This document shows positions 6,519 through 40,225 of a stretch of 40,225 nucleotides of DNA, piece by piece. This DNA is from a virus. The stretch is taken from IMG/VR virus record IMGVR_UViG_3300009537_000059, positions 1 to 40,225 of that record. One strand, 5' to 3'. The notes beneath the pieces are model-generated. The model was given only the letters and a program-made list of their open reading frames with translations, had not been told where the DNA came from and made no database searches. A program made the translations under genes and the position numbers. The number at the start of each line of letters is the position of its first letter. Positions within the stretch are counted from its first letter, which is position 1.

Positions 6519-6726
6519 AATCTTCTCCTATTGAGCTTTGCATCTCATTCCAATCAACGTTATCACACCGATGGTCTTCAAAATTCTCATATCCCGCTTT
6601 GGTTAACCACGGACATGGTGGTCCAGGTAGGTCATGGCGATCTGGTCCCGTTGGCCAATCCATACACCCCATTGAAATTATCATTACAAATATCAATACA
6701 AATATCAATACAAAAAGTTGCTTCAT
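6511..6726 (-). CDS. Small lipoprotein (first of four in a row)
   Basis: 71 residues. The signal peptide MKQLFVLIFVLIFVMIISMGC ends in lipobox MGC (Cys21). The mature part is short and acidic (CMDWPTGPDRHDLPGPPCPW...). Its hydrophobic core is built by a 12-bp tandem duplication at 6685-6714 that repeats VLIF, so the signal peptide has lengthened by slippage. The start overlaps the stop of the CCA-adding enzyme gene (TAATG), implying translational coupling. Function unknown. Confidence 0.66.
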   Translation of the reverse strand: MKQLFVLIFVLIFVMIISMGCMDWPTGPDRHDLPGPPCPWLTKAGYENFEDHRCDNVDWNEMQSSIGEDYD

Positions 6727-8168
6727 TATTTTGCCATATCCATAAATGTATCTCTAATTAATTTCAATGCTTCCTGTTTCGTTATATCAGGTTCTTCAAG
6801 CCATGCGTCTTTGACCACATCAAGCATCGTCTTTACCAGTGGTCCTGGTCTTATTCCAAGTTCCGCCATTACATCAAATCCGTTAATGGGAATTGGAATC
6901 TTTGTGCTTACTGGTGCATTTTTCAAGTTCTTCAATCTATTTCTGACGCCTGGAATCTGCTGCTCCAGTTTATGCTCAGGTGCATGAGCCGTATTATCTG
7001 CATGCATCAGGTCTAACACGTTATCTAAATGATCACCCAAATCAGCTTTGAGCTTTCTCAATGACTTATCGGAGATAACTTCGCCTTCTTTACCAGCTTG
7101 CTTGAGTCGCATGTGCTGACCGACGATGGTGGTGACCGCATCAATGACATTGTTGGGATACTTCAGCCGCTTCATAATATCGCGCGCAATGTCTGCGCCT
7201 ACTTCTTCATGACGATAAAAGTGAATAGTATCATCAATAATATCTTTGGTCTCGGCCTTCCCTATGTCATGAAACAACGCACCTAAACGGGTGACCAGGT
7301 TTGGTGGAACGCTCTTGAGAACTTCTAATGTATGTTTGTTAGCGTCCCAAATATGATACTTGTTTTGTTGTAAACCAACCAACAAGTCTAACTCAGGAAA
7401 GATGTATTTACTAAGGTCGGTGATTTGCAACAAACGAACTGCTGTATCAGGTGAGCCAGTGACGAGCATCTTGTCAAGCTCATCACGGATCCTCTCTGAA
7501 GAAATGTGCTTGAGCATATGTGCGTTACGCTTAATACCCTTAATCATAAATAGTGGAAGCGTCCAATTATACTTGACGGTGAATCGGATAGCTCTCAGCA
7601 TTCTGAGTGGGTCATCTTTAAAGATGATGTCAGGATTGAGAGCAGTTCTGACGACGCCCTTCTGAATGTCCGCCTTCCCCATACCAGTTAAGTCTTTGAT
7701 CTCGCCTGTAGACAAATCTTTGAAGAGCGAGTTGACGGTGAAGTCGCGCCTCTCGGCATCATCAGCCATTGTTCCCTGAGCAACTTCTGGCTTACGAGAA
7801 CCGAAGGTGTATTTCTCGGTGCGGGGCATCACCACTTCTACATCTATGTCGGATAAGTCTTGACCCATATGTTCGATGCCACGAAGATTGAACTTGGCGG
7901 TTCCAAACTTCTGAAAGACTACAGGATTTCCACTGCTGTAAATCCCCAACTTGCGCGTCAACCATTGGGCAAACTCAATGCCACCATCCTTCATATTGAC
8001 TACGAGATCAATATCTTTTATTGGTAGGCCCATAAGTTCGTCACGGACTGCTCCACCGGCCAAATACACTTTGCCCTTCCAACGAGAGTTCTTAATCTCC
8101 TGAGAGAGAAAGTCTAGCGCTGCTTGCTCTTTGGCAGATTCTCGGAGTAAATCCATAAGACGAATCAT
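6726..8168 (-). CDS. cca: CCA-adding tRNA nucleotidyltransferase with HD domain and N-terminal (L/I)xE peptide
   Basis: 480 residues. The class II nucleotidyltransferase core begins at VYLAGGAVRDELMG (about 34-46), followed by the catalytic DID (52-54), RRDFTVNSLF and the DDPLRMLRAIRF segment. LGALFHDIGKAETKD gives an HD phosphohydrolase domain, as in bacterial Cca. It restores or builds the 3' CCA end of tRNAs. Cellular enzymes start almost directly at the GGAVRD region; here about 33 extra residues precede it, opening MIRLMDLLRE. That matches the pattern at 33640 and the length and ending of T4 capsid-targeting peptides. No good ribosome-binding site precedes the ATG, so the start is less certain than the enzyme call. 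Confidence 0.93.
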   Translation of the reverse strand: MIRLMDLLRESAKEQAALDFLSQEIKNSRWKGKVYLAGGAVRDELMGLPIKDIDLVVNMKDGGIEFAQWLTRKLGIYSSGNPVVFQKFGTAKFNLRGIEHMGQDLSDIDVEVVMPRTEKYTFGSRKPEVAQGTMADDAERRDFTVNSLFKDLSTGEIKDLTGMGKADIQKGVVRTALNPDIIFKDDPLRMLRAIRFTVKYNWTLPLFMIKGIKRNAHMLKHISSERIRDELDKMLVTGSPDTAVRLLQITDLSKYIFPELDLLVGLQQNKYHIWDANKHTLEVLKSVPPNLVTRLGALFHDIGKAETKDIIDDTIHFYRHEEVGADIARDIMKRLKYPNNVIDAVTTIVGQHMRLKQAGKEGEVISDKSLRKLKADLGDHLDNVLDLMHADNTAHAPEHKLEQQIPGVRNRLKNLKNAPVSTKIPIPINGFDVMAELGIRPGPLVKTMLDVVKDAWLEEPDITKQEALKLIRDTFMDMAK

Positions 8169-8171
8169 ATA

Positions 8172-8948
8172 TCATAAATAGTTTACTGCAACCTTACTAT
8201 TCACCAATCTGACTTCTTGGATTGGTGGTTCCCATTTTTTGGTAGCGTCTGGATAGGGGAATATGGGCAACTTCAACTTTTTGAGTAATTCTTTCTTTTC
8301 TCGTTTGTTACAGAGAAAATAGAGATAGCGATGCTTGCTTGATTCCTCTTTACGCCAAAAAACGTGACCAATTGTCTCAGCTAATTTCTGCAGGTTCTTG
8401 CTTCCCCACTTGGCACCAACGCTGCGAGAATGAACCCAAGGTCCATTGGGTGTTTCTTTGATAGAATAGTCTGGCATCAACTTGCTTGTACCTATGCCCT
8501 GATATATCCAATTCGTCGCCCTATATATTATGCCAGCGTGACCAACTTCGGGGTCAGCATAAGAGATAAGAACCTTGACATTGGGTGCGTTCTTTCTCAA
8601 CCATCTAAACGATTGGCCGATGACATATGATTCAATGTTTGAACCGTAGCCGTCAAGAATGACTAAACGAGTAAGTTCAAGAACAGCATCCAGAGGCAAA
8701 CTAGCGTCAGTGGTAATACTATTGATTGCTTTGTTACAGACCGGATGACCATAGATAATAGATCCGACAAGCCGCTCATTAGATCCATCAAAGAAAGGAT
8801 GCTCCGTTTTTTCTTCATAGTATACTCCTAAAGCATAGCGGCAAGAACTAAAACGGTGGCTATAATGATGCTTCACTATGAAGTCTCTTGCCACCGCCTT
8901 AGTTATTTGTCGTAGTGACACTCGTGAAGTGTCAACTCTCGGTTCCAT
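8172..8948 (-). CDS. Mom-like DNA adenine modification protein (GNAT fold)
   Basis: 258 residues from ATG 8948 (MEPRVDTSRVSL); a frame-extended start at 9008 would overlap GMP reductase. It resembles phage Mu Mom: KHHYSHRFSSCRYALGVYY, LVGSIIYGHPVCN, LELTRLVILDGYGSNIES, then LISYADPEVGHAGIIYRATNWIYQG, the acetyltransferase-like core. Mom converts adenine in phage DNA to an N6-acetamido (carbamoylmethyl) form that blocks many restriction enzymes. The C-terminus has HRYLYFLCNKREKKELLKKLKLP, also seen in this family. I infer that virion DNA of this phage is modified. No com-like translational activator gene is seen next to it. Confidence 0.8.
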   Translation of the reverse strand: MEPRVDTSRVSLRQITKAVARDFIVKHHYSHRFSSCRYALGVYYEEKTEHPFFDGSNERLVGSIIYGHPVCNKAINSITTDASLPLDAVLELTRLVILDGYGSNIESYVIGQSFRWLRKNAPNVKVLISYADPEVGHAGIIYRATNWIYQGIGTSKLMPDYSIKETPNGPWVHSRSVGAKWGSKNLQKLAETIGHVFWRKEESSKHRYLYFLCNKREKKELLKKLKLPIFPYPDATKKWEPPIQEVRLVNSKVAVNYL

Positions 8949-8949
8949 T

Positions 8950-9990
8950 TTAGAATAATTCTTGTTTAGTGCGATTGACGCTAATGAATGATGCGCATTT
9001 TGGAGCATGCTTTAGTTTTCGTGCCCCAATGTAGGTACAGGCGGAACGAAGTCCGCCAAGAATCTGCAAGATAGTGTTCTCTAGTGGACCTTTATCATCC
9101 ACATCTACTAATTTACCTTCTGACGCTCGATATGTCAAGACCGCGCCGTGGTGCTTCATTTGAGCGTAGTCACTACTCATGCCATAGAACTTGGTGCCTG
9201 TCTCGTCATGCCCGGCCAGCATTCCGCCTAGCATGACGAAATCGGCCCCGCCACAAAACGCCTTGGCGACATCGCCGGGAGTCGTGCAGCCGCCGTCAGC
9301 AATGATGTGTCCGTCAAGGCCGTGAGCTGCGTCAGCACACTCAATGACCGCACTGAGCTGCGGGTAGCCGACGCCGGTGACCATACGCGTCGTGCAGGCG
9401 CTACCAGGACCGATGCCAACCTTCACGATGTCTGCGCCGCGGAGGATCAGCTCTTCAGTCATTTCACCAGTTGCTACATTGCCTGCAATGATGATGAAAT
9501 TAGGAAATGTATCGCGGGCTCTTTCTACTGCATCAGCGAAAGGTTCTGAATATCCATTGGCTACATCTAAACATAAGAAGGCCAGCGGTTCAGCATACAA
9601 AAGTGGTTCAGCATACAAAAGATTAAAATAACCCACAATCTGTTTGGTTTTATCCCAATCATTATCTTTGATGCCTTGGGAAATAATGATGCGGTCAAAC
9701 AGAGTTATTGCTCCGCCGGGCTGTATCGCCTCAGTTGCCCATTCATCAAATGTATAGTGTTTATGAATGCATGTCAACATTCCGTGTTTTGCAAATATAC
9801 GCGCAACAGGGAAGGTTCCAATCGTTGCCATGTTTGACGCAATGATTGGAATACCTTCCCATGTGAACGAGCTATGTGGAAACTTGAATTTTCGCGTCAG
9901 AGTAACCTCTGACCGAGAGAGTAACCTTGACCGCTTCGGCCGGAGCAACACATCGTTGTAGTCCAGCTTGGTGCCGTCTTCTATGTGCAT
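8950..9990 (-). CDS. guaC: GMP reductase
   Basis: 346 residues, full length. It converts GMP to IMP with NADPH, linking guanine and adenine nucleotide pools. The (beta/alpha)8 IMPDH/GMPR features are present: [24 protein letters not shown] (GMPR rather than IMPDH), [29 protein letters not shown] with the catalytic Cys199, [15 protein letters not shown], and [13 protein letters not shown]. There is no CBS domain. An 18-bp tandem duplication (9587-9622) adds LLYAEP twice before the CLDVANGY strand. GGGGGTT precedes the ATG. The C-terminal half lies in a GC-rich patch (about 9180-9440). A purine-salvage role that alters the host pool is likely. Confidence 0.95.
9587..9622. repeat. 18-bp tandem duplication inside guaC
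   Basis: Two copies of an 18-bp unit (9587-9604 and 9605-9622) match at 17 of 18 positions and encode LLYAEP twice in frame. The insertion lies just before the conserved CLDVANGY strand of GMP reductase and keeps the frame intact. Confidence 0.9.
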
Positions 9991-11554: not shown

Positions 11555-12151
11555 TTAGTTGCCAGAAGGTCCGGGTGGTCCAGCTGGGCCGCGTTCGCCT
11601 TGCGCGCCACGGTCGCCAGGAGGTCCGTGGTCACCTTGCGGGCCACGTTCACCCTGAGGCCCTCTGTCACCCTTAAGTCCCTGCAAACCAGGAGGACCAT
11701 CGGCGCCAGGAGGTCCTGGAATTCCATCCTTACCTGGAGGGCCATCTTCACCCTTTGCTCCCCTTTCACCAGGTTCACCACGTTGGCCAGGAGGGCCTTG
11801 TAATCCCTGTGGGCCTTGGAACCCATCTAAGCCAGGAGGACCATCGAATCCTTGCGGTCCTATATCACCCTTCGGGCCGTGGTCGCCCTTCGGTCCAATC
11901 TCACCGCGTTGTCCTTGCGGGCCTGACTCTCCCTTGTCACCTTTCGGACCAACGTCGCCTTTGGGGCCTTGATCACCTTTCGGTCCTACTACACCTTGCG
12001 GACCTACTGGGCCTCTTTCCCCAGGAGGCCCCTGTTCACCTCTTGGACCTTGCAATCCCTGCGTCGCCGTTGGCTCTGTTACTATTCTATAGACGGCATA
12101 AACTACCGCCACAGTCACTACTAACAGCCATGCTATAAGAAAAAATGTCAT
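11555..12151 (-). CDS. Membrane-anchored collagen-like protein
   Basis: 198 residues in two parts. Residues 1-24 are one hydrophobic helix ([20 protein letters not shown]), probably an uncleaved anchor. After a seven-residue linker come 55 uninterrupted Gly-X-Y triplets to the last residues (GLQ ... GPS GN), rich in GPP, GPK, GDR and GER, which favour charged stabilisation of a bacterial-type triple helix. There is no globular trimerisation domain or receptor-binding head, unlike collagen repeats in phage tail fibers. I expect a trimeric rod fixed in a membrane. It lies between the ribonucleotide reductase and HNH genes; role unknown. Confidence 0.85.
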
Positions 12152-30202: not shown

Positions 30203-33106
30203 TCAGGCGGTGAAATCTTCACCGTGTTTAGCCGACAGCCGCTGGACAAACTCTTTGAATGTAGAGCGAGATCTAGCGGATGACACCAGTTTCCCGTCAG
30301 CTACGGTGTCAATTACCTTCTGCTTCTCTGCCAAAAGAATTCTCATGTCTTCGTCTATAGTCTTGTCACACAATAAATAAAATATCTGGACTTTTTTCTT
30401 CTGACCGATGCGGTGAGTGCGGTCTTCTGCTTGTTCGTGAATGCCGGGCACCCAATCTTGGTTGATAAAGATTACGGTATCTATAACATGCTGTAATCCG
30501 TCCAACCCCATGCCGCCGGCGTGCAATCCAACCAACCCAACCCTAGATTTGCCAGCCACAAGCCGTTTTACGATAGCATTGCGCTCTTTTGCGGATGTAT
30601 CTCCATATAACAACTCTGCTTGGTCCCCATAATGCTTTTTGAGCTTCTTGAGTGGGTCAATATAGATAGAGAACAGAAGAATCGCTCTATCAGCCTCCAA
30701 AAACTCGTCTATAATCTCTTTTGCTCGTTCTAGCTTCTTATTTGACAAAAATCCTTGGATTTTCGGCATTGTGCTGACTGTTGCCTTACCATTGAAGTGC
30801 CAAGTCCTGAAAAGGTCGTCCAAAAGCTCGTTGTAGGCCTGACGCTCGTGCTCTTCAAGCTCAATGAACAGGTCATTGCGCTGTTTATCGGGTAATTCAG
30901 GCAAAACCTCTTTCTTTAGCCGCCGAATGACCACATCTTTCGTTCGCTCGTGTAATTCTTCAAGATTTTTCGGTTCTGCAAACTTCCAGCCGCCATATCG
31001 CTGGACAAAGTGATAAAAATTCTTGAATCGTTGCGGGTCAATGAAGCTAAGAAGGTAGTATGCCTCAATCGGTCGGTTTAGAATTGGGGTTCCCGTCAAA
31101 AACAACACATAATCGGTTTTGATTCCAGGATATTTGCGTCGTTCCTTCCACGAACCAAGCACCGACTTTGCTCGAAGCGTTCGGCGATTCTTCAAGTTGG
31201 TAGCTTCATCACAAACAAGCAAATTCCAGTTGATTTGGAGCAACTTTTTGAGTTGCTTGCGGACTGCATCGTAGTTGATTATGTGAAATTGGTTGTTTCC
31301 GTGTCCTTCAACCTTCTGAGTAGTCCAAATGGTGCTGTTCTTACCAGTGAATTTCTTGATTTCCTCCGCCCACTGCAGAGTGACAGACTTTGGACATACA
31401 ACAAGCGTCTTAGCTTGCTTTTCCAGCGCAAAACCTATTGCTTGAACAGTATTATGAGTAACTATATAATTGTTTGTTACATATAATTGCTGTTCTGAAT
31501 CTAACGATATGCATTTGGCCTCTGCCTGACGGCAGATTTCAATAGCTTTAATGTATCTTACTGGTTTATATTTTGGGCGACCTGGATAGTTTTGTGCTTT
31601 CCTGCTCAACTTGAATGGACGGATATTATCAGGCAATGCGATCGTAAGAACCCAAAATGTTCTATACTTCTTTTTATTAAATGTTGATCTTTTTCCCTTC
31701 ATTTTAGCTGTTCCGCCAAACGACTCTATTAATTCTTTAACTTGTCTAGCTAATTTCTCAGAAGTAGAACCAAATTGCAAAGCTGAGGAATACCACCCAT
31801 CAGTATCCATAAGACCCTGAAAAAGTGCAATTCTGTTTCTTAGAGAAGTGAACATGTATTGATCGGGAATTTCTTTTTCATAAGAATATTTCCCCATCAA
31901 TTGCAATTCCTCCAAAGCTTCTTTAATAGGATTGTAGACATTTTTTGCAGAATCTGCCCAAACTATAGAGTAGCCTATTCCTTTACTATGTTTAGACGCT
32001 GTTATTTTTACTGAGGTGGGAATACATTCTTGTAATAGTGATACCATTTCCTTATCGGCTGCAGTGAAGTTAACTCGCCCCTGAGTTAAGCCTCCATCAC
32101 CAATTAAAGCTCCAAGCACATACGGATGTAATGGTAATTCAACATTCTGCTTAAAATCAATACAATCCACCTGAGGGATAGCCCATTTCGCATTTCCCCA
32201 TTTATCTACCAGGTCATCTTTCAGTTGCTTTGTAGTTAGAATTTTTCCCTTTCTATTGTTATATCTGTCTTGCGGAGATTCTACATACCACAAATGATCC
32301 AAACAGCACTCAACAGAACTTTTATCTGAAAAAGTAATTCTATAAATCTCTTTTTCTCCCTGGAGGAAGCACCCATTAACATTAGCAATACCACCATTAG
32401 GAGTGATAACTTCATCTCCAATTCCAATGTCGCCCATTAATTTCCAGCCCAGCGGAGTTAAAATCTTAGCATCCAAAGGTTGCGCTTTACCCAAACCCAT
32501 TGCATCTGCAATCATGGCTCTCCCACCGGCGCGCAGTGCAAACTCTACTCCTACTCGTTGGAATGGGTAAAGCGGTATCAGCGTTGATATATGTAGGTCA
32601 CTTTCAATGCGTGACCGAATTTCGTCCAGGTCTGAACGTCGTTTCTGCTCTCTCTTATAGGCTTTCTTGACCGCATCGGTAACTTTGAGGTTATCCAGGC
32701 CGCCGAAGATGTTAACTACTTTTGGTAGATGAACGATTGGAAACTCCCAACATTTGGCCTCTGCGTTCCAAGTGCGTCCGTCTATTTCTGCCTTAATACG
32801 ATTAAGAATCTCTTGGTCATATGGGAACCTCACCGCCGCTGTCTTTTTATCTTTAACTACAAGCCCGGCGGGCTGACTGCCACTCTGGCGGCTGTTCCCA
32901 TGACTCATGCGAGTTCGGGGAAGGTTCAGTTCCTCCACTGACTCGCCTGCAAGTGCTTTCTCTGCAGCAGTGCGCCAGAGCTCTGGCAATTCGGAACCCT
33001 GTAACCACCGTAGGTAGTTTGGGTCTGTATCATGGACGTAGCCTAAACTACTTCCACGGTGCTTCCCGAATGTGAATATGATTTGATATGCAGATTGGTG
33101 AACCAT
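30203..33106 (-). CDS. SMARCAL1-like SNF2 helicase, interrupted by an intein
   Basis: 967 residues including a 345-residue intein (208-552); the spliced protein would be 622 residues. Residues 10-50 (FTFGKHRGSSLGYVHDTDPNYLRWL) match the ExoX C-terminal type domain. Residues 85-135 (AAVRFPYDQEILNRIK...WNAEAKCWEFP) resemble the HARP DNA-annealing domain. The SNF2 motor has MIADAMGLGK/T (Walker A, split by the intein), CDEATNLKN (DEAT 633-636), LTGTP, GGMGLDG and DRTHRIGQ (about 895-901). It likely remodels or anneals forks, a functional analogue of T4 UvsW. It sits oddly among virion genes, between a packaged-protein candidate and the gp26-like gene. Confidence 0.92.
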   Translation of the reverse strand: MVHQSAYQIIFTFGKHRGSSLGYVHDTDPNYLRWLQGSELPELWRTAAEKALAGESVEELNLPRTRMSHGNSRQSGSQPAGLVVKDKKTAAVRFPYDQEILNRIKAEIDGRTWNAEAKCWEFPIVHLPKVVNIFGGLDNLKVTDAVKKAYKREQKRRSDLDEIRSRIESDLHISTLIPLYPFQRVGVEFALRAGGRAMIADAMGLGKAQPLDAKILTPLGWKLMGDIGIGDEVITPNGGIANVNGCFLQGEKEIYRITFSDKSSVECCLDHLWYVESPQDRYNNRKGKILTTKQLKDDLVDKWGNAKWAIPQVDCIDFKQNVELPLHPYVLGALIGDGGLTQGRVNFTAADKEMVSLLQECIPTSVKITASKHSKGIGYSIVWADSAKNVYNPIKEALEELQLMGKYSYEKEIPDQYMFTSLRNRIALFQGLMDTDGWYSSALQFGSTSEKLARQVKELIESFGGTAKMKGKRSTFNKKKYRTFWVLTIALPDNIRPFKLSRKAQNYPGRPKYKPVRYIKAIEICRQAEAKCISLDSEQQLYVTNNYIVTHNTVQAIGFALEKQAKTLVVCPKSVTLQWAEEIKKFTGKNSTIWTTQKVEGHGNNQFHIINYDAVRKQLKKLLQINWNLLVCDEATNLKNRRTLRAKSVLGSWKERRKYPGIKTDYVLFLTGTPILNRPIEAYYLLSFIDPQRFKNFYHFVQRYGGWKFAEPKNLEELHERTKDVVIRRLKKEVLPELPDKQRNDLFIELEEHERQAYNELLDDLFRTWHFNGKATVSTMPKIQGFLSNKKLERAKEIIDEFLEADRAILLFSIYIDPLKKLKKHYGDQAELLYGDTSAKERNAIVKRLVAGKSRVGLVGLHAGGMGLDGLQHVIDTVIFINQDWVPGIHEQAEDRTHRIGQKKKVQIFYLLCDKTIDEDMRILLAEKQKVIDTVADGKLVSSARSRSTFKEFVQRLSAKHGEDFTA
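31451..32485 (-). mobile_element. Intein with class 3 signature and LAGLIDADG homing endonuclease
   Basis: 345 residues, from Ala208 to Asn552 of the host protein, inserted between Lys and Thr of GLGK/T. The first residue is Ala, not Cys/Ser. The class 3 WCT set is present: Trp273 two residues after the block B His (DHLW), Cys532 in block F (AKCISLD) where class 1 inteins have Asp, and Thr553 as +1 residue after VTHN. The two DOD endonuclease motifs are LGALIGDGGL (331-340) and QGLMDTDGW (430-438), with catalytic Asp present. Splicing would proceed through the internal Cys. It appears intact. Confidence 0.9.
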
Positions 33107-33130: not shown

Positions 33131-33640
33131 TTAGCGTTTAATATATAGCGACATGTGGTCTAAGATGAAGTGCAACATATAAAGAGCATCATCAGCGGCA
33201 GGAATAAACGCTTCCTGTGTTCCATACATTTCACTAAAAGCATCTTCAAGGGCGATTCTGGCATTCTTGAACACATTTCTTATTCTTTGCGCATCGTGGC
33301 CCATTTTAACCGCTAACTTCTCGTCTTTATAGAAAGCTTCAGCTGCTCTTAATGCTCTAGTGTAAATATTGACCCATTGTTTAGCGTATGTGGAAGACCA
33401 GGTCCATCCGGAATACGCTGGGTGTCCTTGCAACTTATCATGCAGCACATATAGTTCTTTGAGTTTTGAGTTTTTCGAACGCTCCTCAGGATTCAAAAAT
33501 CCTTCTTCCATTCCTCCCATATCACCCTTGAACGGCAAAAGCTCTAGCGGACGGCCAAGTGGTCCACCACCAGGACGGAGGGAGCCGGTTGCTCGTCCTT
33601 TCCCAACATCTTCGGGAAGTAAGTCAACTAATCTAATCAT
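33131..33640 (-). CDS. Candidate head-packaged protein with (L/I)xE leader
   Basis: 169 residues, family not recognised. It opens MIRLVDLLPE and then a Gly/Pro-rich segment (GSLRPGGGPLGRPLELLPF). The first ten residues share seven positions with the CCA-adding enzyme leader and end LPE, a prohead-protease (L/I)xE site. The start is forced by the ATGA overlap with the fiber gene. The rest is helical (KLKELYVLHDKLQ, QWVNIYTRALRAAEAFYKDEKLA, ILDHMSLYIKR). If processing follows T4, residues 1-10 are removed in the head. Role unknown. Confidence 0.65.
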   Translation of the reverse strand: MIRLVDLLPEDVGKGRATGSLRPGGGPLGRPLELLPFKGDMGGMEEGFLNPEERSKNSKLKELYVLHDKLQGHPAYSGWTWSSTYAKQWVNIYTRALRAAEAFYKDEKLAVKMGHDAQRIRNVFKNARIALEDAFSEMYGTQEAFIPAADDALYMLHFILDHMSLYIKR

Positions 33641-35485: not shown

Positions 35486-35974
35486 TTAGTAATTGAGTAT
35501 GCAATAATCAGGTTGAACGGTAAGCTCAATCTCTATTGGATTGTCTGTATCCCAATCAGCATCATTGAAGGTTGCGTCAGTAATCATTGCGCCCTTAATG
35601 ATCCATTCTTCTACCTTGTCGCCAACAGGACCGAGCATATTGAATACCAAATCCTTCTTATAGAAGTCTGCATATCCATCTCTACCGGTGACGGACTCGT
35701 GGTGTAGTCGGACCCATTCCATGACTGCTTGCGCTCCTGATGGAACGATTGGATCGTATAGAGTGAAAGTCATAGTGCCCCAAACGGACCTACCCTTTAC
35801 ATAACGGACAAGGTTAATATGTGGTAGCTCCTTTGCGGGCTGTGTAAGATGCGGGCGTGAGACTTTCTTCACAAGAAAAGATGGTGCACCGTCCATATAC
35901 AAGAGGAAACGGTTGGTCATCTTTGGTTCAAATGAATTGAAGAACATCTCCTGTTCGGCAACTAGGTTAGCCAT
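35486..35974 (-). CDS. Tail tube protein (T4 gp19-like)
   Basis: 162 residues, the expected size. It has the tube-protein pattern: MTNRFLLYMDGAPSFLVKKVSRPHL near the start, VWGTMTFTLYDPIVPSGAQAVMEWVRLHHES in the middle, then DLVFNMLGPVGDKVEEWIIKGAMITDATFNDADWDTDNPIEIELTVQPDYC at the end. Subunits form the hexameric inner tube of the contractile tail, surrounded by sheath. GGAGA lies 6 nt before the ATG, and a promoter-like box (36007-36017) precedes it within a leader that is repeated at 36336-36372. High expression is expected. Confidence 0.92.
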   Translation of the reverse strand: MANLVAEQEMFFNSFEPKMTNRFLLYMDGAPSFLVKKVSRPHLTQPAKELPHINLVRYVKGRSVWGTMTFTLYDPIVPSGAQAVMEWVRLHHESVTGRDGYADFYKKDLVFNMLGPVGDKVEEWIIKGAMITDATFNDADWDTDNPIEIELTVQPDYCILNY

Positions 35975-36017
35975 GCGTTATCTCCAAAAGTGTTACTGTG
36001 TTACAACTATAAATATC
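35975..36017 (-). repeat. Late leader cassette, copy A (tail tube)
   Basis: The minus strand contains GATATTTATAG (36007-36017), GTAACAC and TTTTGGAGATAA in front of the tail tube ATG. Almost the same order and wording occurs at 36336-36372, with small length differences. It is a candidate promoter plus ribosome-binding site unit with the TATTTATA variant of the box. Confidence 0.6.
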
Positions 36018-36032
36018 GTGTCAGTGTGATTT

Positions 36033-36335
36033 TCATTCCCACACCATAAGCGTGTTGATGACTCTTTGTAGCATTGCAGACCGGCGGGGATCAATCTTTA
36101 CTCCCTTTGGTCTGAATACTCCACCCACACCTGATTGTGCCCATTCAACATATTGAACAGCAAACTCTTGCTCTTGTGGGTTCTTCAACTTCACTGCAAA
36201 CTTAAGAAAGTCTCGTGCGCCTTCAGAATCGCCATGCAAAGCCTTCTTGACTCGCATGCCCACATCTTCAGCTTCATCCAACCGGCTAACCGTAGTTAGC
36301 CGGTTTTCAGTTAAGAATCTCTTATAATCCCACAC
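36033..36335 (-). CDS. Candidate head-packaged protein with T4-like capsid-targeting peptide, GTG start
   Basis: The open frame extends to 36431, but GTG at 36333-36335 is the best start: GGAGA lies 7 nt upstream in a leader shared with the tail tube gene, and it removes the overlap with the previous gene. The 100-residue product begins MWDYKRFLTE-NRLTTVSRL. It matches the T4 internal-protein leader MKTYQEFIAE at Met1, Tyr4, Phe7, aliphatic 8 and Glu10. The rest is helical and basic (VGMRVKKALHGDSEGARDFLKFAVKLKNPQEQEFAVQYVEWAQ, PRRSAMLQRVINTLMVWE). I infer cleavage after Glu10 by the prohead protease and packaging in the head. Function unknown. Confidence 0.7.
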   Translation of the reverse strand: MWDYKRFLTENRLTTVSRLDEAEDVGMRVKKALHGDSEGARDFLKFAVKLKNPQEQEFAVQYVEWAQSGVGGVFRPKGVKIDPRRSAMLQRVINTLMVWE

Positions 36336-36372
36336 TGCATTATCTCCAAAATGTGTTACTGCTATAAATATG
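36336..36372 (-). repeat. Late leader cassette, copy B (packaged-protein gene)
   Basis: The minus strand has CATATTTATAG (36362-36372), AGTAACACA and TTTTGGAGATAA, then GTG. It is nearly identical to the leader of the tail tube gene at 35975-36017. The match extends through the ribosome-binding site to the start codon and is the main support for the GTG start at 36335. Confidence 0.6.
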
Positions 36373-36399: not shown

Positions 36400-37548
36400 T
36401 TAGCGATATTCAATAGTAATTGTAACCTCATCTCCTGTTTTAGCGTTAACTTGCTTCATTAATTTTTCAAATTCTATCATAAAACTACCCCATCCACCCC
36501 GAATTGATGGTATGCCAGATCCCTCTCCTTTTATAACCGCCTTAACAGGATTGCCATTAACAATGTGGCGACCAGAAGTATACACTGAAACTTCACCCTT
36601 AATAACTTTTTTGGATTCCAACAACGAATCAGGATGAAGTTGTTCGTCAACATAAAGGCCGCCGGGCCATCCACTATAAGATGCTGGCTGCTTTCCTTTA
36701 GAAAATTCTACAGCCTTTCCTTTATCATCAAAATAACGAACCAAATTTACCTGATTCATAGCACCAAATTTAGATTTGGCGCCGGGTTTGGTTTTCCATA
36801 CTTCTCCTGGATTGCGTCCCTTCAATTTTGGAGCACGATATTTGACGGCTTCTCCCCACGTCATAACATTATAACCTTCTTCGTTGATTCCTTCTTTAGT
36901 TCTTCTATAGGATGAGCGAGAAATGCGTTGAAGTCCCTTAAGCGATGGGTGTCTAAGACTGCCAGTAGTAGCATGTTCTTCTTCCTGTCTAGCGTCATCC
37001 CATCCTTTATTCCATTGAGCAAATATCTCTTGAGCACCTTGCCCCACTTTCATGCCGCGGGCCAACTGAGTTACTTTTGGGTCTAAAACGGCTGCTCTCT
37101 TTTTGCCACCTTTGAACGCTGTCTGTCCAAGTTCATATGCAGTTCTAGTCACTTCAGGATGAAGTTGTTCGTCCCCCTCTTTCATATTAGTAAGTTTAAG
37201 CCATTGACTATGTATGTCTGCTCGTCTTCCATCCGGAAATTTTACTCTAACCCAACCTAAAGCATTTGGATCTGACATAGCAGTTGCTTTTGATCCGGCT
37301 GGATAATCCTTTGTAATAGCATATCGGCCACGAGCACCACCTCTGTGTAAAGTAGATGTCAATACAACAGAGTCTCCCTTTTTAATAGCTTCTTCCACCA
37401 GTGTTCTGCCTTGATTAGCAAACTGTTGGGCTTCATTTTGCAACCTAAAAGTGCATTGCTGACCTTTGTGATTACAAGAACGCCAGTATCCGTTTGGAAG
37501 TCTCCAAACTTTGCCCTCAGGGCTTCTTTGAGTAGAAGAATATAGCAT
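36400..37548 (-). CDS. Hypothetical protein of the tail region
   Basis: 382 residues, family not recognised. The N-terminus (KVWRLPNGYWRSCNHKGQQC) has a possible zinc pair. Residues 50-120 look like a small beta domain (GDSVVLTSTLHRGGARGRYAITKDYPAG, WVRVKFPDGRRADIHSQWLKL). DEQLHPEVTR and DEQLHPDSLLE occur about 178 residues apart, suggesting a repeated linker or protease-site segment (LLE). The rest is basic and glycine-rich. AGGA lies 11 nt before the ATG, a weak placing. It sits between the sheath-side genes and the packaged-protein candidate, so a virion or scaffold-associated role is plausible only from context. Confidence 0.6.
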   Translation of the reverse strand: MLYSSTQRSPEGKVWRLPNGYWRSCNHKGQQCTFRLQNEAQQFANQGRTLVEEAIKKGDSVVLTSTLHRGGARGRYAITKDYPAGSKATAMSDPNALGWVRVKFPDGRRADIHSQWLKLTNMKEGDEQLHPEVTRTAYELGQTAFKGGKKRAAVLDPKVTQLARGMKVGQGAQEIFAQWNKGWDDARQEEEHATTGSLRHPSLKGLQRISRSSYRRTKEGINEEGYNVMTWGEAVKYRAPKLKGRNPGEVWKTKPGAKSKFGAMNQVNLVRYFDDKGKAVEFSKGKQPASYSGWPGGLYVDEQLHPDSLLESKKVIKGEVSVYTSGRHIVNGNPVKAVIKGEGSGIPSIRGGWGSFMIEFEKLMKQVNAKTGDEVTITIEYR

Positions 37549-37584: not shown

Positions 37585-37845
37585 CTATTGCTTCCTATAA
37601 TCTTTCAATTTGGCATATTCTCTGGAAAGTTGTACATATGCTATTGCTTTTTTATTAAAATTAGCAATAAAAGTTTTCAATGTAGTATCTGATGTTGTTT
37701 CATCGAAAGCAAGAACATTCCCCAAAATACTTTTTAAGTCAACTTCAAGATCATCAAGTTTATCTTCTATCTGCTCTATTCTTCCTTCTTTGAGAGCCAT
37801 ATGCAATTCTTCTTTAATTATTTCTTTGAGTTCCGAGCGTTTCAT
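37585..37845 (-). CDS. Small coiled-coil protein with MKRSELKEIIKEE leader
   Basis: 86 residues from ATG 37845, which overlaps the GIY-YIG stop (ATGA); a start four codons upstream would overlap more. The opening MKRSELKEIIKEEL is a leader I have seen on many phage virion proteins, with IKE at residues 10-12 as a possible (L/I)xE cleavage site. Then comes an acidic coiled coil (RIEQIEDKLDDLEVDLKSIL) and a basic helical end (FNKKAIAYVQLSREYAKLKDYRKQ). Prohead core or internal-protein function is the leading guess; not proven. Confidence 0.62.
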   Translation of the reverse strand: MKRSELKEIIKEELHMALKEGRIEQIEDKLDDLEVDLKSILGNVLAFDETTSDTTLKTFIANFNKKAIAYVQLSREYAKLKDYRKQ

Positions 37846-38462
37846 TTCAAAGTCCATCCTTTATATTGAGGCCGCATTCCTCTAATAAGTCGTCGGAAGT
37901 GGCCGTCATGTTTAATGCCATGTTCTCTACAAAACCCTTTCACAGTATGAACTACATACTTCTTTCCGTCAGGAGATATTACTATGGGAGAATCCCAATC
38001 ATATTTTCTGAGGGTTTTGCTTCTTTTGACATTCTCTTCAAGTGAATGCGATTGGTTTTTAGCTAATTCCGATAAATATTTCTTGAGCTGCTTTCCCTTA
38101 TTAGAGTTATAAAATTGTGTTCTAGCTACAGATAATTTTCGTTTAGTTTCTTCTGTATGCTTCCCTCGGGCGCCGCCTGACCTACAATTGTATCCGAATC
38201 TTGGATTTCTACTCTTGTGTTCTTTAATAAGCTTAATTTCTAATTCATCAAGCTGTTTTTGAGTAGGCGCCTCCATCAATACTTCAAACGAAAAAGCGTT
38301 CTCTCCATACTTATCCCATGCTCTTTGAAGATAAGGATTAAAGCATTTTCCCCTAACCAAATCTGACTTATGAGCAGACCAACGGTTATTTGGATTGTCA
38401 TAAGTAGTTTGTCCTATATAGACCTTGTTAGTAACCGTATTCGTAATCTTGTAAATATACAT
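37842..38462 (-). CDS. GIY-YIG homing endonuclease (Seg-like)
   Basis: 206 residues. The N-terminal catalytic domain MYIYKITNTVTNKVYIGQT is the GIY-YIG pair, followed by NNRWSAHKSDL (Arg/His), AFSFEVLMEAPTQKQLDELEIKLIKEH with the metal-binding Glu, and FGYNCRSGG. The C-terminal half has HTEETKRKLSVAR (a NUMOD3-like DNA-binding motif) and a DNA-contacting region ISPDGKKYVVHTVKGFCREHGI (NUMOD1-like). It is a free-standing homing endonuclease that would cut related phage genomes lacking it. It sits 7 nt after the tail sheath gene, among essential virion genes. Confidence 0.9.
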   Translation of the reverse strand: MYIYKITNTVTNKVYIGQTTYDNPNNRWSAHKSDLVRGKCFNPYLQRAWDKYGENAFSFEVLMEAPTQKQLDELEIKLIKEHKSRNPRFGYNCRSGGARGKHTEETKRKLSVARTQFYNSNKGKQLKKYLSELAKNQSHSLEENVKRSKTLRKYDWDSPIVISPDGKKYVVHTVKGFCREHGIKHDGHFRRLIRGMRPQYKGWTLK

Positions 38463-38469
38463 TTACGAA

Positions 38470-40225
38470 TTATGCTCCCTCAGGGAACGTAGCGCCAGTC
38501 GGGAGAATATTGAACTCCAAGCTGATAAATTCAGCAGTTCTCGTTGGCTGCAAGTAAATCTGACCAACAAGAATGTTTCTGTCAATCAAGTCAGGTGGAT
38601 TGTTGCTCTCATCCATAATGACTCTGAATGCGTACAACCCACTGCGCTCTTGAATGCTTGCCAAATACGGATTGGCGATGTTGAGGAAGCGTTGACGCGT
38701 AGAGTCAACGTTCTGCTCAAACACCAAGAAGTTGGCGGATGATGCAATGAACTTCTTGACTGCAATGAGAAGCCTACGAACATTGATGCGGTCAAGTGCT
38801 GAACTCTTAACTTGTAAGGTCTTCTGTCCGAATGCTACAATGCCTTGACCAGGGAACAGAGCGATAGGATTGACGCGGCCTTCGTACAGGTCGTCGCGGT
38901 TCGTCTTGGTTAGACGGCGCTCTACCTGAATTGCCTCATCAATACCACCACGATTGAGTCCAGCAGGTGCGAACCACTCTGCGGCTACCTTGTCGTTGAA
39001 GGCGTAGACGCCTGCCATCACGACCGAAGGTGGAACCCAAATGTTCTTGTTGCTTGTTGAGTCAAAAATCTTGACCCAAGGATGATACACACCTGCATAG
39101 TTGGTGTCAAGTCCTGATACGACGTTGACGGCGCCGTCTACGGTCTGGCCAAACGAGAAGCCGTCCATGATGTAGAAGCAGTCACCTCTGTTCTCACACA
39201 TGTCAATGCCGATCTGCGTGACGTAGGAGTGCAGCTGTCGTAGAACACCAGGCACCATCAATAGATTAATGTCAAATGCCTCAGGGTTACCGACAATGCT
39301 AATTGCCAAATCAAATGCCCTTGAACCACTTGTGCTTGATAGCGACAAGTCAAATCCTTGGGTGTTAGATGCAGCAATGTTTGTACCGGTTGCCAAAACT
39401 CTAGATGGGTTTAGAGAATCAAATCCATACTGCATTGGAACAGAAAACTTGCGAAGGCTTCCGCCGGTTACTGTGCTTGCAGTAACTGCTCCTGCTACAT
39501 CTGCATCGTTACCAGTTAAGTCTTCAAGACTGAATGCTGAACCAATTATAGGTGCACCATCCGGAATTGGATTTAGATATGACCCGTTTGTTACATCGGC
39601 AAAGTCCCAACCATAGTAAATTCTACTGTTGGCGACGGATTCCGATGCTCCAACAGGAACTTCATAACGAGTGGTAACATATGACGGAGCTGCCTCAGTT
39701 GGAAGAGCCAAACTGACGCCGCTGAAGACCGCCGGAACTCTAACTTCAGCAAATCCTGCTGGAAGTGCTCTGTCTGGAACATTCTCAATTCCAGCCGCTG
39801 GCATCTCAATATAGATGTAATCAGAGTTGTTTGCCCACTCACCTTCTAGGGTTGCGTCCTCATTGGCTGTATCAACACTCCAATATTGATCGCCAATTCT
39901 GCGTGCTATGTAATCTGGACTATCAGGGTCAAGACTCAGATTATCAAATTGCTCAAGAACACTGATTCGGCTATCGGTGTCGTCAAATTGACGAACGATC
40001 AATGCAAAAGTACCATGCTGGTCATCTGCGGTTGATGCAGCCGGGCGAGTGTTTGAAATGGAAATCTTGACCGTTCTGTTGGAATCGTTACCGTCAGCAA
40101 AGGTATGAACCTTAAATAGATTGTGCTTCTTACCACCAATGGTCTGTGATTGAATCCACGGAGTTTCACCACCATCAAAATCTTGACCTGCAAAATCTAG
40201 AACACCAGGAGCAGTTGAAGACGAA
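38470..40225 (-). CDS. Tail sheath protein (T4 gp18-like), 5' end outside window
   Basis: At least 585 residues; the frame continues past the window edge through DDQHGTFALIVRQFDDTDS, so the start is not here. VLEQFDNLSLDPDSPDYIARRIGDQ is the highly conserved sheath motif. The C-terminal 150 residues (GRVNPIALFPGQGIVAFGQKTLQ, RINVRRLLIAVKKFIASSANFLVFEQN, RFLNIANPYLASIQERSGLYAFRVIMDE, ILVGQIYLQPTRTAEFISLEFNI) are the handshake/sheath domain. Subunits polymerise around the tube and contract on infection. It ends 7 nt before the GIY-YIG gene. Confidence 0.93.
   Translation of the reverse strand, partial: SSSTAPGVLDFAGQDFDGGETPWIQSQTIGGKKHNLFKVHTFADGNDSNRTVKISISNTRPAASTADDQHGTFALIVRQFDDTDSRISVLEQFDNLSLDPDSPDYIARRIGDQYWSVDTANEDATLEGEWANNSDYIYIEMPAAGIENVPDRALPAGFAEVRVPAVFSGVSLALPTEAAPSYVTTRYEVPVGASESVANSRIYYGWDFADVTNGSYLNPIPDGAPIIGSAFSLEDLTGNDADVAGAVTASTVTGGSLRKFSVPMQYGFDSLNPSRVLATGTNIAASNTQGFDLSLSSTSGSRAFDLAISIVGNPEAFDINLLMVPGVLRQLHSYVTQIGIDMCENRGDCFYIMDGFSFGQTVDGAVNVVSGLDTNYAGVYHPWVKIFDSTSNKNIWVPPSVVMAGVYAFNDKVAAEWFAPAGLNRGGIDEAIQVERRLTKTNRDDLYEGRVNPIALFPGQGIVAFGQKTLQVKSSALDRINVRRLLIAVKKFIASSANFLVFEQNVDSTRQRFLNIANPYLASIQERSGLYAFRVIMDESNNPPDLIDRNILVGQIYLQPTRTAEFISLEFNILPTGATFPEGA

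Follow-up and report, generated by a model that had tools for sequence, protein, structure and literature searches.

The gene at 36033-36335, on the minus strand of the window (the whole stretch of DNA analysed here, a linear virus record of 40,225 bases), appears to encode a packaged and probably injected internal head protein whose capsid-targeting leader is of the T4 type, extended to two sites. We put the probability of this reading at roughly three in four. Packaging and injection had both been proposed in an earlier note on this DNA. Capsid targeting is well supported by a profile HMM of the leader, by the modular bodies behind it, by co-occurrence with an S77 protease, by an excess of motifs ending at residue 10 and by depletion of such motifs in the bodies, whereas injection is argued by analogy with the T4 internal proteins (IPs).

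Nearly all genes of the window lie on the minus strand, in the order tail sheath, GIY-YIG endonuclease, three genes of small or medium size, tail tube, genes for baseplate and tape measure, and then replication and nucleotide genes. The candidate gene is the immediate upstream neighbour of the tail tube gene. Neither a head gene nor the phage's own prohead protease gene was seen in the window, a 40-kb fragment with the head module outside it. The features referred to below are the following.

36033..36335, minus strand: candidate internal (packaged) protein CDS, 100 aa, GTG start, stop TGA, from the Shine-Dalgarno (SD) sequence, a codon model and leader alignment
36273..36335, minus strand: N-terminal leader, residues 1-21 (MWDYKRFLTENRLTTVSRLDE), from the leader HMM without the window protein and from alignment
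36306..36314, minus strand: first (L/I)xE site, LTE at residues 8-10, read from the sequence, at the same position as the T4 IPII/III and gp24 sites
36273..36281, minus strand: second (L/I)xE site, LDE at residues 19-21, read from the sequence, counterpart of the family LLxE at about residue 24
36036..36272, minus strand: body, 79 aa, predicted helical, with no further (L/I)xE, from sequence, homology searches and structure prediction
36343..36347, minus strand: Shine-Dalgarno GGAGA, 7 nt before GTG 36335, read from the sequence
36363..36370, minus strand: TATTTATA, late-promoter-like element of the candidate gene, from strand bias and occurrence upstream of structural genes
36008..36015, minus strand: TATTTATA element of the tail tube gene, read from the sequence
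35486..35974, minus strand: tail tube protein (phrog_4542), start at 35974
36400..37548, minus strand: neighbour protein, 382 aa, with an N-terminal domain of ~50 aa common to genes in the same place in the close relatives L002 and L003
37585..37857, minus strand: neighbour, 86-90 aa, with another leader type (MKRSELKEIIKEEL)
37842..38462, minus strand: GIY-YIG homing endonuclease in the sheath-tube interval
38470..40002, minus strand: tail sheath (start uncertain)
33131..33640, minus strand: 169-aa protein with the 10-residue leader MIRLVDLLPE
6726..8168, minus strand: CCA-adding tRNA nucleotidyltransferase with the 10-residue leader MIRLMDLLRES, like T4 gp24 MAKINELLRES

Several other genes of the window deserve mention. 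A SNF2-type helicase is encoded at 30203-33106, and its helicase match is split at about residues 426-492 by a LAGLIDADG_3 domain, an insertion that is probably an intein. The genes at 8172-9008, 1691-2149 and 8950-9990 encode a Mom-like DNA modification protein, a NADAR domain protein and an IMP dehydrogenase/GMP reductase homolog, respectively, and 11555-12151 encodes a collagen-like Gly-X-Y protein with a hydrophobic N-terminal segment.

The leader of the candidate protein has about 21 residues and two (L/I)xE sites, MWDYKRFLTE-NRLTTVSRLDE-A, where hyphens mark the sites. As the earlier note had claimed, its first ten residues agree with MKTYQEFIAE of IPII and IPIII in the T4 record at M1, Y4, F7, L8 and E10. 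The description "almost T4-identical" was overstated, exact identity being 4 of 10 residues. Residues 4 and 7 of T4 IPIII serve targeting and residues 8 and 10 processing (PMC9026906), and all four of these functional positions fit in the window leader (Y4, F7, L8 and E10). By chance, M..[YF]..F[LI].E should occur about 0.002 times in the 45 window genes, and only one copy of a leader of this type was seen within the window. Like the capsid targeting sequence (CTS) of T4 IPI, IPII and IPIII, the window leader is hydrophobic or aromatic at positions 4, 7 and 8 and has E10 and an (L/I)xE site, and like the T4 IP genes the window gene has a small unrelated body and a cassette-like locus, with an S77 protease in the phage group. 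Unlike the T4 leaders, it continues as far as residue 21, where a second site lies, and its likeness to other leaders reaches that residue. Unlike the T4 IP genes, the gene lies between tail sheath and tube, and its body is unrelated to any IP found. Head proteins of SPN3US and phiKZ also have N-terminal propeptides that are cut by the prohead protease, at several sites each (PMC5694885), but several of those propeptides exceed 100 residues and their motif is AxE or SxE, not (L/I)xE.

Similar leaders are also found on proteins of the cultured Flavobacterium phage immuto, a relative by its tail tube (54% identity), in which gp003, gp076, gp077 and gp092 have N-termini like MENFDLKKFLVENKLTTNSKILKE and different bodies. 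A leader HMM was trained on six leaders, the four from immuto and two from L002, with the window protein left out. The window protein was its best non-training match among 30,722 ORFs (E = 4.7e-4), and in L003 a protein (MFDIKQFLTENKVY) encoded in the same sheath-tube interval matched with E = 0.007. Related leaders of uncultured phages and immuto have the consensus MENNFDLKKFLVENKLTxNSRLLxE. The window leader shares with the immuto and IMG/VR leader proteins the FLxEN[KR]LTxxS[RK]L core, the terminal (L/I)xE, small genes, unrelated bodies and the S77 protease, but it is a divergent member, 2-3 residues shorter in front and starting M-WDY where the consensus has MENNFDL, with WDY in place of FDL.

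A scan of IMG/VR by leader alignment, with the window included, gave 243 confirmed stretches, and 78 loci were kept. The 73 leader proteins of at least 60 aa from IMG/VR fell into 30 unrelated body clusters, one of them an HD-domain protein. Whole contigs had one to seven leader copies each, in one contig as a tandem run. In eight contigs (L231-L238) a leader opens a conserved core-like protein of the immuto gp077 family and recurs, after LQE, at or close to the end of that protein; in some of these contigs the protein continues into a further body, at which point immuto has the separate gene gp076. A copy inside a protein cannot serve as a signal for translation, so the leader acts at the protein level. 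Such a fusion is possibly a polyprotein cut at (L/I)xE by the prohead protease. The leader HMM found no extended leader in T4, SPO1, Mel-JY01, RM378 or six tail-tube relatives, so not every member of the group has it. The leader strings had no occurrence in the literature searched.

A link to known internal virion proteins came from tblastn of the 24-aa window leader against 50,697 phage records. All six matches were N-termini of leader proteins, four of them in immuto records (gp092, E = 0.9) and two in Klebsiella Straboviridae genes (E = 3). The Klebsiella gene examined adjoins lysozyme e, which is where T4 has its ipIII locus, and an IPIII-type gene lies beside it; its product falls into PHROG 3155, annotated "internal virion protein" (E = 9e-45). 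The window leader is identical to this leader (MKTYQEFLNESRLTTVGIIDES) at 12 of 22 residues without a gap and has (L/I)xE at 10 and 21 like it, but the bodies are unrelated, and the leader match, E = 3 for the best variant chosen by search, is alone at chance level. An HMM of Straboviridae IP leaders (eight rows, one of them shifted by one residue in error) did not recover the window leader. No homolog of the body, T4 IPI, IPII and IPIII included, was found in Pfam, NCBIfam, PADLOC or phage tblastn; PHROG 36017 matched the window protein weakly (E = 0.005). The body resembles L002 1209-1571 over 21 residues, but this similarity (E = 0.005 in a single comparison) was too weak to use. The AlphaFold model from the single sequence of the window protein had a pLDDT of 61, and Foldseek against the PDB gave nothing below E = 1.8 for it.

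The proposed removal of the leader would be the work of a protease of the T4 gp21 type. Of 20 tail-tube relatives, 12 have a member of the S77 family (PF03420, T4 gp21), as do 12 of 17 leader contigs; those without it are mostly short fragments. Among leader contigs of at least 40 kb a single one lacks it, and most of the larger tail-tube relatives have it. The major capsid protein of most relatives starts with an MSxVxxFINEA-like sequence, and their protease has LLTEA-type sites near residue 20, so (L/I)xE specificity of the protease of this phage group is plausible. Among 767 non-redundant proteins of relatives, 22 had [FILVMY][LIM]xE ending at residue 10, where the background positions average 3.2 (p = 4e-12, or 1e-7 when immuto and the window were left out). 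SPO1, a non-S77 control, also gave a slight excess (6 vs 2.4); it and T4 are weak controls for this peak, with ~120 genes each and little power. The bodies behind extended leaders contained 45 (L/I)xE motifs where their composition predicts 62.6, whereas the other immuto proteins, used as controls, contained 300 against 277.6 expected (p = 0.01 for the difference). Such depletion is what proteins that have to survive the protease would show. The earlier note predicted a mature protein starting NRLTTVSRL, which assumes cleavage after E10. Since the leader family ends at the second (L/I)xE, the mature window protein may instead start AEDVGMRVK, after LDE21.

These data bear on the alternative that survives best, that the window protein is a component of the prohead core or scaffold, digested or expelled in maturation, rather than injected cargo. 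T4 gp22, gp67 and gp68 are core proteins with that fate, and the gp077 family of immuto, the most conserved leader protein, directly precedes the terminase, bears a leader copy at either end and has the look of a coiled-coil core protein. The window body, by contrast, is free of (L/I)xE past residue 21, leader bodies in general have fewer such motifs than expected, and they are unrelated and variable, as would be expected of cargo. We consider a core role unlikely, yet deserving of more weight than any of the alternatives that follow.

Two shorter leader types were also seen. The ten-residue MIRLxDLLxE kind occurs on the CCA-adding enzyme, which has TATTTATG just ahead of its ATG and is possibly a packaged enzyme, judging from its N-terminus. 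A third type, MKxSxLRxIIxEEL, is found on small genes: L002 2469-4601, window 37585-37857, and immuto gp080, gp094 and gp095. The pooled bodies behind shorter leaders, those of the MIRLxDLLxE kind included, showed no (L/I)xE depletion, so the case for cargo is weaker for MIRLxDLLxE leaders.

The locus raises another alternative, in which the leader would dock the protein during assembly of the tail or baseplate. The sheath and tube genes flank the gene, and the 5' region ATATTTATAG..GTAACACA..TTTTGGAGATAA.GCA is common to it and the tail tube gene. TATTTATA stands 27 nt ahead of GTG 36335, and the tail tube gene is arranged alike. The earlier note had described a shared leader; the sequence is indeed common to both genes, but it is a late-promoter-like TATTTATA with an SD, not a coding leader. 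In one-direction relatives the coding strand has 79 copies of TATTTATA and the opposite strand 10, and the element stands upstream of structural genes, those for terminase, portal, sheath and tube among them. It is probably the late promoter of this phage group, by its distribution. The late promoter element of T4 is TATAAATA, of which TATTTATA is the reverse complement. Against a tail function, TATTTATA also serves head genes. For (L/I)xE leaders in general no significant association with TATTTATA was found (p = 0.14). The immuto leader genes, moreover, lie just ahead of the terminase-portal-protease cluster or adjoin the DNA polymerase, and the sheath-tube interval is empty in most relatives and at this junction also hosts homing endonucleases. 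A tail-docking role is therefore improbable.

The sheath-tube junction is an insertion hot spot, with homing-endonuclease-like genes at window 37842-38462, L007 4191-4970 and L009 5937-8008. Genes in the same interval also share an N-terminal domain of ~50 residues (MLYSS..WRLPNGYWRSCNHKGQQCTFRLQNEA), at window 36400-37548, L002 1209-1571 and L003 5372-6286, in front of C-terminal parts that differ; from these three sequences it appears to be a second modular N-terminal element in the interval of the leader genes.

It is also conceivable, at slightly longer odds, that the (L/I)xE leader plays no part in targeting and is simply an amphipathic helix at the N-terminus, its likeness to other leaders being convergent composition. 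The motif is short, AlphaFold gives a helix at residues 4-10 of the window leader (with low confidence), and SPO1 too has its slight excess at residue 10. Composition does not explain a conserved sequence of 24 residues with fixed spacing in front of unrelated bodies, nor the internal copies in fused proteins.

The start codon fits a leader that begins at the GTG. GGAGA at 36347-36343 with a spacing of 7 nt was confirmed on the sequence, a start picker weighting codon usage and SD selected GTG 36335 independently, and the leader HMM alignment begins there as Met1. All leader homologs begin at the position of the GTG; the earlier note had proposed a search for homologs with aligned starts, to which the body contributes none. 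That the 132-aa protein from ATG 36431 is the real product and the T4-like peptide accidental is the least credible alternative: it would be the longest open frame and has an ATG start, but its sole purine run (aacaggagATG) places AGGAG directly against the start codon with zero spacing, so that, as had been noted before, the frame lacks a usable ribosome-binding site; the ATG falls 32 nt within the upstream gene 36400-37548; TATTTATA would lie inside the coding part; and both the HMM match and the codon-usage caller point to the GTG.

The packaged-protein reading implies the following sequence of events. The gene would be expressed late from its own TATTTATA, and the leader would dock the protein on the prohead core; it is from the leader that we infer targeting of the window protein. 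The gp21-like S77 protease of the phage would then remove the leader after LTE10 and/or LDE21, and the 79-aa body would remain in the head and most likely enter the host along with the DNA. Analogy with T4 gives good support to packaging and cleavage. The T4 internal proteins Ip1-3 are injected inhibitors of host restriction (PMC12373910), and by the same analogy the window protein may be injected and act against restriction. The interval between tail sheath and tube would then be a cargo cassette that includes this gene; small leader-bearing genes occur there in close relatives as well.

Beyond this gene, it is an even bet that the portable label of 21-24 residues, FLxEN[KR]LTxNS[RK]LLxE, is the capsid address of a general cargo-loading system in a large uncultured group of T4-related phages, serving several unrelated proteins per genome and in places protease-cut fused polyproteins, with MIRLxDLLxE as a second label that may load the tRNA CCA-adding enzyme. 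Capsid-targeting signals were previously recognised mainly in relatives of the T-even phages, and this leader family seems to have gone largely unnoticed. A leader that is recognisable in uncultured phages would allow the packaged proteins that first contact the host to be found by sequence alone. A search based on it would yield a list of candidate anti-defence effectors, and the leader may be of use as a loading tag for phages of other hosts.
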